Assembly: GCF_020010905.1 (NCBI RefSeq)
Contig: NZ_JAGJBY010000001.1
Span: 2,128,001-2,192,000, forward strand
Length of the DNA: 64,000 bases
Source: Streptomyces acidiscabies
Lineage (GTDB): Bacteria; Actinomycetota; Actinomycetes; Streptomycetales; Streptomycetaceae
Direction: 5' to 3'
Below are positions 14,231-40,067 of this stretch, piece after piece. Under the pieces are notes generated by a model. That model searched no databases. It saw only the letters and a list, made by a program, of their open reading frames with translations, and was not told where the DNA came from. Within the stretch, counting starts at the first letter, position 1. Each line of letters starts with the position of its first letter. The position numbers and the translations under genes were made by a program.

Positions 14231-14283
14231 TCGGGTGCGGGCCGGTGGGGGTTGTTCGCGCAGTTCCCCGCGCCCCTAAAAGA
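14231..14283 (-). repeat. Interspersed Streptomyces intergenic repeat, copy A
   Basis: Read on the minus strand it contains the 20-nt core GGGGCGCGGGGAACTGCGCG (plus-strand 14257-14276), identical to cores at 30780-30799 and 38760-38779. The match extends about 47 nt, ending in a GCACCCG segment at 14231-14237. A degenerate relative sharing CCTAAAAGA follows at about 14328-14345. Confidence 0.8.
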
Positions 14284-30771: not shown

Positions 30772-30779
30772 CGCCGTTA

Positions 30780-30827
30780 GGGGCGCGGGGAACTGCGCGA
30801 CCAGCCACAACGCATCCCGCACCCGCC
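30780..30827 (+). repeat. Interspersed Streptomyces intergenic repeat, copy B
   Basis: Begins with the 20-nt core GGGGCGCGGGGAACTGCGCG (30780-30799) and continues ACCAGCCAC... to GCACCCGCC. It matches copy C inside mrdA over about 47 nt with only a few differences, and copy A at 14231-14283 on the opposite strand. Confidence 0.85.
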
Positions 30828-36486: not shown

Positions 36487-38874
36487 GTGACGAACATCCC
36501 GGAGACCGGGCGGACACCAAGGGTCCAGACGCGGCTCGTGGTGATCCAGATCCTCGTCCTCTCCCTGCTCGGGACGCTCGGCGGGCGCCTGTGGTACCTC
36601 CAGATCCGGGAGGGCGACGAGTACGCGAAGCAGGCGTCGGGCAACCACGTCCAGCAGGTCGTCCAGCCGGCGGTGCGCGGCTCGATCCTGGACGCGCGGG
36701 GAGTGCCCCTCGCGGACAACGAGACCCGGCTCGTGGTCTCCGCGTCGCGTACGGACCTGCTGAAGCAGAAGGACGACGGCAAGGCGGTCCTCGCCAAACT
36801 CGCGGGCGTGCTCGGCATGACGCCCGAGGAGGTCCAGCAGAAGGTCCGCCTCTGCGACGCGCAGACCCCGCAGCCCTGCTGGAACGGCTCGCCCTACCAG
36901 CCGATCCCGATCACCGACGAGGCCACCGCCAAGCAGGCCCTCCAGATCCGCGAGCGCGCCGAGGACTTCCCCGGCATCACGGCCGAGCCGGAAGCGGTCC
37001 GCCGCTACCCCGGCCCCGGCAAGTCGAACACCGCGCAGGTCCTCGGCTACCTCTCGCCGGTCACGGACGACGAGATCCAGCAGGCCAAGGACAGCGACTC
37101 GCCGTACCTGCGCTCCGACCAGGTCGGCCGGTCGGGGATCGAGCGGGAGTACGACAAGGAGCTGCGCGGCAAGGCGGGCGTCACGCGCTACGAGGTCGAC
37201 AACCTCGGCCGCGTCATCGGCCAGGCCGAGGCGACCCCGGCCCAGCCCGGCGCCAACCTCGTCACCAGCATCGACGCCCGGGTGCAGCGCGTCGCGGAGT
37301 ACGAGCTGAACGACGCGATGAAGGAAGCCCGCAAGCAGTGGGACCGCAACACCAATGAGCGGTACAAGGCGGACTCCGGCGCCGTCGTCGTGATGGAGGC
37401 CAAGACCGGCCGCATCGTCGCGATGGCCTCGAACCCGACGTACGACCCGAACGCGTGGGTGGGCGGGATCTCCGCCAAGGACTACAAGTCGCTCACCGGC
37501 AAGGACTCCAACTACCCGCTGCTGAACCGGGCCATACAGGGTCAGTCGGCACCGGGCTCCACCTTCAAGGTGATCTCCACGGCGGCGGCGGTGGAGGCGG
37601 GCTACGACTTCAACGGGCGCTACCCCTGCACGAGTTCGTACTCGGTGGGCGGGCAGGTCTTCAAGAACTTCGAGTCGGAGAACTTCGGCCCGATCAGCCT
37701 CGGCCGCGCCCTCGAAGTCTCCTGCGACACCGTCTTCTACGGCCTGGCGCACAACGAGTGGCAGAAGGACGGCGGCATCAAGCCGAAGAAGAACCCCGGC
37801 GACTACTTCTTCAAGGCCGCCCACCAGTTCGGCCTCGGCAAGGAGACCGGCATCGACCTGCCGAACGAGGTCACCGGCCGCGTCCCCGACCGCCAGTGGA
37901 AGCAGAGCTACTGGAAGGCCAACAAGGACGCCTGGTGCAAGCAGGGCAAGAAGGGCGGCACGTACGTCGAGCAGATCGCGTACGAGAACTGCCTCGAAGG
38001 CAACCAGATGCGCGCCGGTGACGAGATCAACTACTCCATCGGGCAGGGCGACACCCTGGTCACGCCGATCCAGATGGCCACGATCTACGCGGCGATCTCC
38101 AACGGCGGCACCCTCTGGAACCCGACCGTCGGCAAGGCCGTCATCAGCCCCGACGGCCGGACGACCACCGAGATCAAGCCCGAGTCCCACGGCAAGCTGC
38201 CCATAAGCCAGACCACGCTGGGCCAGATGGACAAGGCCCTCGCCGGCGTCGCCACGGAAGGCACCGCCGCCTGGCGGTTCGCCCAGGTCGGCTGGCCGCA
38301 GGCGAAGATCCCGATGCACGCGAAGACGGGTACCGCCGAGGTCTACGGCAAGCAGACGACGTCCTGGTTCGCGACGTACACCAAGGACTACGCGATCGTG
38401 ATGACGATCTCCCAGGGCGGCACGGGCTCCGGCGCGTCGGGCCCGGCGGTCCGCAACATCTACGACGCCCTGTACGGCGTCGCGGACGACGGCACGATCA
38501 CCCCGAAGAACGCGCTCCTCCCGACCCCCCAGAAAACCCTCCCGAAGGTCCAGCCGGACGGCACGATCACGTCCCCGAAGGTGGCGAAGGACCCGGCAAA
38601 GGACCAGAGGGCCAGCCAGACGGACAAGCCGAAGCAGGACGACACGCTGCCGCCGGGAACGGCCCCCACGAACACGGGCGGCAACCAGGACACGCGCCGA
38701 AAGTCGAGGCGTAGGAGGCCGGGTCCTGGGGCTGGCGTCCCAGGGGGCGCAGCCCCCCAGGGGCGCGGGGAACTGCGCGACCAGCCACGACGGTGCCGCA
38801 CCCGCCAGCTCACCAGACGAGGTACCCCCGGTCTGCGATCCCTCCTCCGCCGCCCTAGAAGGGAAGCCAAATGA
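36487..38874 (+). CDS. mrdA: Penicillin-binding protein 2 (class B transpeptidase), C-terminus extended by a repeat insertion
   Basis: 795 residues from a GTG at 36487 with GGGAGGGGG upstream. N-terminal anchor helix (about 17-35), the dimerisation domain, then the transpeptidase with the catalytic S358-T-F-K361 (in SAPGSTFKV), S412-C-D and K613-T-G615. It cross-links peptidoglycan with RodA in the Streptomyces spore wall. From about residue 746 the chain changes to a Pro/Gly/Arg-rich string (GPGAGVPGGAAPQGRGELRD and on), which is translated from the interspersed repeat at 38721-38806. That tail is not part of the PBP2 family. The stop overlaps the rodA start by 4 nt. Confidence 0.94.
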   Translation: MTNIPETGRTPRVQTRLVVIQILVLSLLGTLGGRLWYLQIREGDEYAKQASGNHVQQVVQPAVRGSILDARGVPLADNETRLVVSASRTDLLKQKDDGKAVLAKLAGVLGMTPEEVQQKVRLCDAQTPQPCWNGSPYQPIPITDEATAKQALQIRERAEDFPGITAEPEAVRRYPGPGKSNTAQVLGYLSPVTDDEIQQAKDSDSPYLRSDQVGRSGIEREYDKELRGKAGVTRYEVDNLGRVIGQAEATPAQPGANLVTSIDARVQRVAEYELNDAMKEARKQWDRNTNERYKADSGAVVVMEAKTGRIVAMASNPTYDPNAWVGGISAKDYKSLTGKDSNYPLLNRAIQGQSAPGSTFKVISTAAAVEAGYDFNGRYPCTSSYSVGGQVFKNFESENFGPISLGRALEVSCDTVFYGLAHNEWQKDGGIKPKKNPGDYFFKAAHQFGLGKETGIDLPNEVTGRVPDRQWKQSYWKANKDAWCKQGKKGGTYVEQIAYENCLEGNQMRAGDEINYSIGQGDTLVTPIQMATIYAAISNGGTLWNPTVGKAVISPDGRTTTEIKPESHGKLPISQTTLGQMDKALAGVATEGTAAWRFAQVGWPQAKIPMHAKTGTAEVYGKQTTSWFATYTKDYAIVMTISQGGTGSGASGPAVRNIYDALYGVADDGTITPKNALLPTPQKTLPKVQPDGTITSPKVAKDPAKDQRASQTDKPKQDDTLPPGTAPTNTGGNQDTRRKSRRRRPGPGAGVPGGAAPQGRGELRDQPRRCRTRQLTRRGTPGLRSLLRRPRREAK
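38721..38806 (+). repeat. Interspersed Streptomyces repeat, copy C, inside the 3' end of mrdA
   Basis: The core GGGGCGCGGGGAACTGCGCG at 38760-38779 is identical to copies A and B, which are intergenic. A palindromic segment precedes it (TGGGGCT... CAGCCCCCCA, 38728-38759), a combination often seen in this repeat class. The reading frame of mrdA passes through it uninterrupted and continues about 20 codons more to the rodA overlap. Confidence 0.85.
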
Positions 38875-40067
38875 CGGGCAACACCTTCTCCGTCTCGGGC
38901 TACGGCCCAGACCGCGCAGGCTGGACAAGGATCTTCGCGAGGGACTCGCTAGCAAGGCGCCTGGACTGGCCGATACTCCTCTCGGCCCTGTCCCTCTCCT
39001 TCATCGGCTCCCTCCTGGTCTTCTCCGCGACGCGAAACCGCACGGAGATCAACCAGGGCGACGAGTACTACTTCCTCCTCCGCCACCTCATGAACACCGG
39101 CATCGGCTTCTGCCTGATGCTGGCAACGGTCTGGCTGGGCCACCGCACCCTGCGCAACGCGGTCCCGATCCTGTACGGCCTCTCCGTGTTCGGCATCCTC
39201 CTGGTGCTGACCCCCCTGGGCTCCACGGTGAACGGCGCACACTCCTGGATCGTGCTCGGCGGCGGCTTCTCCCTCCAGCCCTCGGAGTTCGTGAAGATCA
39301 CGATCATCCTCGGCATGGCGATGCTGCTCGCGGCGAGGGTGGACGCGGGTGACAAGCCGTACCCCGACCACCGCACGGTGCTCCAGGCACTGGGCCTCGC
39401 GTCCGTACCGATGCTGGTCGTCATGCTGATGCCGGACCTGGGTTCGGTCATGGTGATGGTGATGATCGTGCTCGGCGTACTGCTCGCGTCCGGCGCGTCG
39501 AACCGCTGGGTCTTCGGCCTCCTCGGCGCGGGCGCGTCCGGCGCGCTCGCGGTGTGGCAGCTCGGGATCCTCGACGAGTACCAGATCGCACGGTTCGCCG
39601 CGTTCGCCAACCCCGAGCTGGACCCGGCGGGCGTCGGCTACAACACGAACCAGGCCCGCATCGCGATCGGCTCCGGCGGCCTCACGGGCTCGGGCCTCTT
39701 CCACGGCTCCCAGACGACGGGCCAGTTCGTCCCCGAACAGCAGACGGACTTCGTCTTCACGGTCGCCGGCGAGGAACTGGGCTTCGTGGGCGCGGGCCTG
39801 ATCATCCTCCTCCTCGGCATCGTCCTCTGGCGGGCCTGCAAGATCGCCCGCGAGACGACGGAGCTCTACGGCACGATCGTCGCGGCCGGCATCGTCGCGT
39901 GGTTCGCCTTCCAGGCGTTCGAGAACATCGGCATGACCTTGGGCATCATGCCGGTCACCGGCCTCCCGCTGCCGTTCGTGTCGTACGGAGGTTCATCGAT
40001 GTTCGCGGTCTGGGTGGCGGTGGGCCTGCTCCAGTCGATCAAGGTCCAGAGACCGATGTCGGCGTAA
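38871..40067 (+). CDS. rodA: SEDS-family peptidoglycan glycosyltransferase RodA
   Basis: 398 residues with 10 membrane helices; ATG 38871 overlaps the mrdA stop (ATGA) and has AAGGGAAG upstream. SEDS motifs are clear: STVNGAHSWIVLGGGFSLQPSEFVK in the main loop, the essential-acid region GSGGLTGSGLFHGSQTTGQFVPEQQTDFVFTVAGEELGF, and PVTGLPLPFVSYGGSSM near the end. It polymerises glycan strands and partners PBP2. In Streptomyces this gene (also called sfr) belongs to the spore-wall cluster. Confidence 0.95.
   Translation: MTGNTFSVSGYGPDRAGWTRIFARDSLARRLDWPILLSALSLSFIGSLLVFSATRNRTEINQGDEYYFLLRHLMNTGIGFCLMLATVWLGHRTLRNAVPILYGLSVFGILLVLTPLGSTVNGAHSWIVLGGGFSLQPSEFVKITIILGMAMLLAARVDAGDKPYPDHRTVLQALGLASVPMLVVMLMPDLGSVMVMVMIVLGVLLASGASNRWVFGLLGAGASGALAVWQLGILDEYQIARFAAFANPELDPAGVGYNTNQARIAIGSGGLTGSGLFHGSQTTGQFVPEQQTDFVFTVAGEELGFVGAGLIILLLGIVLWRACKIARETTELYGTIVAAGIVAWFAFQAFENIGMTLGIMPVTGLPLPFVSYGGSSMFAVWVAVGLLQSIKVQRPMSA

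Follow-up and report, generated by a model that had tools for sequence, protein, structure and literature searches.

The reading frame of mrdA (PBP2) passes, in the 64,000-nt stretch of the Streptomyces acidiscabies genome analysed here (the window), through a copy of a short interspersed repeat and ends in a 4-nt overlap with rodA. We explain this arrangement by insertion of a REP-like repeat into the codons of the Arg-rich PBP2 tail after the split from the nearest resolved relatives, with the frame left open to the ATGA overlap, a reading to which we assign a probability of about 0.8 (Table 1). An earlier note on this DNA had stated that the mrdA frame runs through the repeat into the overlap, and the open reading frames confirm it.

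Table 1. Coordinates of the mrdA–rodA junction, its repeat copies and two other in-frame captures (window positions unless a locus is given)
Feature	Position	Strand	Remarks
mrdA (PBP2)	36487–38874	+	GTG start, 795 aa; PF00905 208.8 bits, PF03717 145.6 bits
rodA	38871–40067	+	398 aa
ATGA, overlap of mrdA stop and rodA start	38871–38874	+	4 nt
NQDTRR codons	38683–38700	+	ancestral Arg-rich tail begins here; near relatives have NRDTRRRRR..
Lineage-specific insert within the mrdA frame	38701–38856	+	left boundary known to within a few bases
AGAAGGGAAGCC	38857–38868	+	to the right of the insert; taken to be kept from the ancestral junction; contains GAAGGGA
GC palindrome GGGGGC-GCA-GCCCCC	38743–38757	+	adjoins the left repeat edge, in the place of TTTA; seen in the sequence
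Interspersed repeat proper, ~50 nt	38759–38808	+	delimited by own-genome matches
21-nt repeat core GGGGCGCGGGGAACTGCGCGA, mrdA tail	38760–38780	+	
Core copy 2	14256–14276	-	outside called genes
Core copy 3	30780–30800	+	outside called genes
EamA transporter	L280:2040-3005	-	tail ..VSFRGAGNCASNHEAPAPEKQTT repeat-encoded, including the T-run; frame differs from that of mrdA
CobW-family protein, 499 aa	L292:1137-2636		PF02492 and CobW_C above cut-offs

Both proteins score above the curated cut-offs of their families (TIGR03423, 608.1 bits against 455, for MrdA/PBP2; TIGR02210, 355.9 bits against 336.7, for RodA). The transpeptidase domain of MrdA comprises residues 298–659, where the domain match ends, and the insertion would have occurred beyond it, in the codons of the Arg-rich C-terminal tail. 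This tail is presumably translated, and from the topology of class B PBPs we take it to be disordered and extracellular, outside the membrane; the AlphaFold2 result for 26 MrdA sequences (mean pLDDT 46.7) is too poor for judging it. Based on gene name and order, the mrdA–rodA pair of the window would be the counterpart of the system treated in PMC4416010, and a spore-wall role for the window PBP2 may be extended from the sections of that paper used here. The same sections give T80, S87, S216 and T558 as the prevalent phosphosites of S. coelicolor PBP2, none of the four being located in the tail.

The core of the repeat has three exact matches in the window (14256 -, 30780 + and 38760 +), and the earlier note was right both in describing the two other copies as identical to that of mrdA and in placing them between genes. 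Shuffled windows contain a mean of 0.03 core copies with up to three mismatches, and none of 100 shuffles reaches three. The copy at 30779–30812 is 97% identical to the mrdA copy across 34 nt. In the 11.0-Mb genome, 166 core copies are present (up to two mismatches) versus one for the reversed pattern, and a longer sister form, starting with GGGGCGCGGGGCTGTATCGA, occurs 71 times at the same tolerance. With the mrdA copy itself excluded, at least 54 own-genome matches were found among the 40 of 250 candidates that were scored, with identities of 82–98% and a best E of 1.1e-16. GC-rich coding sequence may look repetitive, and an ordinary Pro/Gly/Arg tail might resemble the repeat by chance, but copy number, the long match to the 30779 copy and the shuffles reject this explanation and leave it a negligible probability.

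Nearly all of the matches from the candidates scored (40 of 250) fall in or around 38759–38808, and five copies extend the match to 38828 or 38829. At the own-genome loci examined, the left part (38660–38759) has matches of 13–19 nt only and the right part (38800–38880) a single match of 17 nt. The interval 38719–38874 had been proposed for the repeat; its central portion at 38759–38808 stands, but the remainder, with short matches only, does not. A consensus of 34 register-aligned copies has TTTA preceding the core. The mrdA copy lacks these bases, and the GC palindrome found in their place (38743–38757) has short matches only at the same loci, of 13 and 19 nt. Folding of 38700–38900 as RNA gives a short stem at the core and a stability no greater than that of shuffles (z = -0.04). 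Rfam returned no match up to an E of 1 in 38600–39000 and, for four repeat-rich loci, four microRNA-type matches below the gathering score (in L019 and L014), so that assignment of the repeat to a known RNA family is rejected. Of 295 Streptomyces genomes sampled across the genus, 180 contain the core (up to one mismatch) and 115 lack it; copies per genome range from 0 to 845, with several hundred in some, and this patchiness suggests bursts of spread.

The placement of the repeat was examined for 183 copies, the first-listed and hence non-random matches, of which 102 are distinct copies of the own genome (from the 166) and 81 come from seven other genomes; the gene statistics rest on a simple codon-usage gene caller made for this analysis. 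Copies lie outside called genes in 99 of 102 cases in the own genome and in 75 of 81 in the others, where called genes cover 70% and 84% of the loci examined, respectively. The nine genic copies (3/102 and 6/81) are far fewer than expected (P ~6e-95 for 9/183, on the assumption that 0.76 of the DNA is coding). The left edge of two further own-genome copies provides a TAG stop and nothing more. Intergenic gaps that hold a copy are more often convergent than divergent (29 versus 7 in the own genome, 29 versus 3 in the others; pooled, 58 versus 10, P ~1e-9), and 17 of the 183 copies have no called gene on one flank. In the proposed mechanism, the element that entered mrdA would be a REP-like repeat that is normally intergenic and situated mostly beside gene 3′ ends. 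At L019:1480-1600 and 2560-2680, repeat copies on opposite strands begin 51 nt apart, giving inverted repeats whose centers contain A/T tracts; a minus copy followed by a neighboring plus copy recurs among the genome places listed.

Six of the nine genic copies are located within 100 bp of a stop codon: mrdA, L280 (the EamA transporter), L315, L337, L355 and L359 (P ~6e-5, assuming that 10% of coding sequence lies there; 5/8 when the mrdA copy, the starting point of this analysis, is left out). The others are in the CobW-family gene of L292, internal in L303 and at a gene start in L327. The last of these is doubtful, as the start may be misplaced, and the gene score of L315 is weak; both are included in the nine. 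Within the genome of the window, in-frame captures are seen in three genes: mrdA, the EamA transporter and the CobW-family protein. In the latter, three tandem repeat copies (two long and one short) encode, in frame, a linker joining its two domains, and models for hibernation GTPases and ZigA score under their cut-offs. The captures in L280, L292 and L359 are read in a neutral frame (RGAGN), and an Arg-rich frame is used at the C-terminus of the unrelated gene in L355.

mrdA–rodA junctions were compared across 207 loci, two of which, L031 (where the contig ends) and L086, have no usable junction; 181 distinct junctions remain after removal of duplicates. They are the best-matching places listed, a non-random sample, and six are from outside Streptomyces (L059, L085 and L087–L090). 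MrdA lengths, counted from the aligned query residue since many stretches lack the N-terminus, range from 699 to 838 aa with a median of 751, compared with 795 in the window. Because 15 of the 180 other junctions also have at least 775 aa, length alone is not unusual, and the repeat-free tails of L120, L220 and L193 argue likewise that a long tail is not unusual by itself. Long tails without the repeat, with for example PKN or GS runs, also occur in L207 and L241.

An Arg-rich tail motif is present in 138 of the 181 junctions (median 19 residues, charge +9) and absent in 43; NRDTRRRRRKRGSRRMCT is an example of the short Arg-rich tail of a near relative. Several relatives have tails that are short and not Arg-rich. 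The insertion had been credited with adding a basic tail to the protein, which is incorrect: given the Arg-rich tails already present in most junctions, the repeat lengthened a tail that was basic before. Both the length and the content of the tail vary widely across the sampled junctions, and changes in length seem to be a general feature of this site.

In a FastTree tree of 177 rows, from which five motif-less junctions were left out (L049, L054, L084, L085 and L237), the window joins S. niveiscabiei first (support 100) and then L161 and L032 (support 84). With a protein identity of 97%, S. niveiscabiei (L031) is the closest record, but its mrdA breaks off near codon 678. When its assembly was searched, with 40 of 221 candidates scored, the 47 matches obtained were confined to the repeat section of the query, and the rodA start was not among them. 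Of the relatives whose tail is resolved, L161 (749 aa) and L032 (S. phaeofaciens, 751 aa) are the nearest, and the 795 aa of the window point to a lineage-specific insertion. An extension of about 50 residues had been claimed; lengthening by the repeat insertion is borne out, with a measured difference from these two relatives of 44–46 residues. Apart from S. niveiscabiei, DNA identity over the 3′ region of mrdA is at most 86% in any genome (392 and 394 genomes), so the age of the insertion is not closely bracketed.

An alignment of 14 sequences resolves the junction of the window into the NQDTRR codons, one inserted block that is absent in the relatives, the relatives-matching AGAAGGGAAGCC, a replacement of 13 nt by 2 nt and, finally, ATGA. 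Homology to the relatives stops at the NQDTRR codons or at most two codons beyond them. The earlier note had predicted shorter proteins in relatives and an end of homology near residue 745; most relatives are indeed shorter, but homology ends at about residues 738–740. The net gain from the insert is 132–138 nt relative to L032 and L161. In the orientation and frame in which the block is read it contains no stop, and since the net change is a multiple of three the frame would continue to the old ATGA. The outcome would be a tail lengthened from the 18 residues and net charge of +9 found in near relatives to the 63 residues and +17 of the window MrdA.

The GC content of the extension at the three codon positions is 0.75/0.75/0.68 versus 0.62/0.47/0.97 in the mrdA body, and the lack of the third-position signature of coding DNA is as expected for recently gained non-coding DNA. 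Each of the three forward frames has negative codon log-odds, with -28.5 for the one in use and -14.0 for the next, which is also open, so composition lends no support to translation of the extension. These same values, with the used frame not the best, and the error-prone nature of GC-rich palindromes would be accommodated by an assembly or sequencing error in which the mrdA frame seems to cross an intergenic repeat owing to a missed indel. We regard this as very unlikely, as the frame spans the conserved body and arrives precisely at the kept ATGA overlap, the tails of three other genomes (L192, L221 and L242) likewise read through copies of the same family without a frame break, and 15 of the 180 other junctions encode long tails. 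Returning to insertion of the repeat, the flat GC profile and the freedom with which the tail varies among the sampled junctions fit a tolerated insertion whose composition has not yet adapted, and the tail may have been kept mainly through tolerance of change.

At the start of rodA, ATGA is found in 139 of 181 junctions, GTGA in 12 and other arrangements in 30, and GGAGG is present upstream of rodA in 127 of 151 comparable junctions. In the window this GGAGG is lost. Just before ATGA, 2 nt would have taken the place of an ancestral 13-nt stretch that included GGAGG, and GAAGGGA now occupies the Shine–Dalgarno position. The predicted anti-Shine–Dalgarno energy of this GAAGGGA is -9.9 kcal/mol versus a median of -10.3 kcal/mol, and 41 of 150 other junctions are as weak as the window or weaker; the 16S end entered in these energies is the one we take to apply. 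With GGAGG gone, translational coupling, if kept, depends on the replacement GAAGGGA. We think, on the basis of the junction sequence, that coupling has probably been kept with its site replaced, and that rodA translation would be little altered. The earlier note had coupling preserved as well; the 4-nt overlap is retained as it said, but the loss of GGAGG had escaped it.

The proximity of the repeat to ATGA and the 11-nt net loss immediately before it would also fit targeted insertion at the overlapping start and stop codons of operons, as for MIRUs. The core, however, begins 111 nt upstream of ATGA, the insert and the overlap have 12 presumably ancestral nt between them, and other copies of the repeat are mostly intergenic. 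The position of the repeat thus disfavors insertion at ATGA, which we consider highly improbable.

Insertion into the tail codons is not restricted to the window. The same repeat family occurs in the MrdA tails of three genomes of a distant clade, L192 (838 aa), L221 (798 aa) and L242 (817 aa). L192 and L221 carry the long form, L192 with an additional GC-rich stretch within the repeat that is likewise in frame, and L242 carries a degenerate short form. A similar tail in distant species had been put forward in the earlier note as a sign of coincidental resemblance; such tails do occur, but with the same repeat family, which supports insertion over coincidence. The three have flanks in common. 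FastTree places L192 and L221 as a pair (support 99) and joins L242 to the repeat-free L220 (support 96); the five-member group that they form with the repeat-free L114 has a support of 25 and is nested in a nine-member group supported at 93. The presence of the repeat requires three state changes over 176 junctions of known state, with the window apart from the other carriers. We read this pattern as at least two, and possibly three, independent captures of the repeat in the MrdA tail.

All four carriers (the window, L192, L221 and L242) share the Arg-rich frame GRGEL or GRGAV, and their tails have charges of +13 to +17. Could the longer polybasic tail, on the outer face of PBP2, have been selected, for example for binding of anionic wall polymers in spore-wall synthesis? 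The ancestral tail was already strongly basic (a median of +9 over 138 junctions), and the use of one Arg-rich frame by 4/4 carriers, when captures in other genes include the neutral RGAGN, would agree with such an exaptation. Against it, the carriers may represent only two events, for which the chance of a shared frame is ~1/3 to 1/6; the Arg-rich frame also appears at the C-terminus of the unrelated gene in L355; insertion in an Arg-rich region may in itself favor continuity; and there are relatives whose tails are short and not Arg-rich. Selected exaptation is thus unlikely in our estimate, though parallel capture in the same frame could reflect more than tolerance. A broader version, in which the repeat family is a recurrent supplier of C-terminal tails and the PBP2 captures share the Arg-rich frame because longer polybasic tails are useful, we put forward as a doubtful but conceivable proposal.

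No name was found for the repeat family, which may already be described in the subscription literature. Core strings of 14–16 bases were absent from the text of the 5.39 million papers searched, a coverage that excludes figures, supplements and most subscription papers, and a search by topic for Streptomyces repeats gave, among the listed titles and abstract starts, none on this repeat. The portions of PMC4681348 consulted mention REP elements for E. coli only. The window also contains, at 2294–2567, five 30-nt repeats with 61-nt spacing that resemble a short CRISPR array; two consecutive repeat–spacer units (2355–2415 and 2416–2476) are identical, indicating that a CRISPR-like spacer has been duplicated.

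Three known systems offer comparisons. Rickettsia palindromic elements, as described in PMC10969869, are short palindromic interspersed repeats of ~150 bp that are found in frame inside unrelated protein-coding genes and encode a conserved peptide. The Streptomyces repeat is like them in lying in frame in coding genes (mrdA, the EamA transporter and the CobW-family protein), but differs in being ~50 nt long, read in several frames and overwhelmingly intergenic. With REPs and BIMEs it shares a high copy number, small size, GC-richness, a mostly extragenic location beside gene 3′ ends and an occasional arrangement in inverted pairs; unlike them, it has no REP-associated transposase linked to it and has been captured in frame in mrdA. 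The genome has three Y1_Tnp genes, and their 3.4-kb loci contain no exact 11-nt core, leaving mobilization by a RAYT unsupported. According to PMC12548453, MIRUs are short repeats of mycobacteria whose insertion takes place at start codons and preserves a -4 nt spacing. The resemblance to MIRUs is that of an actinobacterial repeat at coupled genes whose 4-nt overlap is retained; the difference is that the Streptomyces repeat lies in tail codons well upstream and not at the start codon. As it fails a defining feature of each of the three, we assign the repeat to none of them. What is new here is the occurrence of one repeat family in the same tail and the same frame in the three genomes of a distant clade. 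The mrdA captures offer a comparable example in which a non-coding repeat has entered the reading frame of a conserved bacterial cell-wall gene more than once, and they draw attention to a repeat family that reaches 845 copies per genome.
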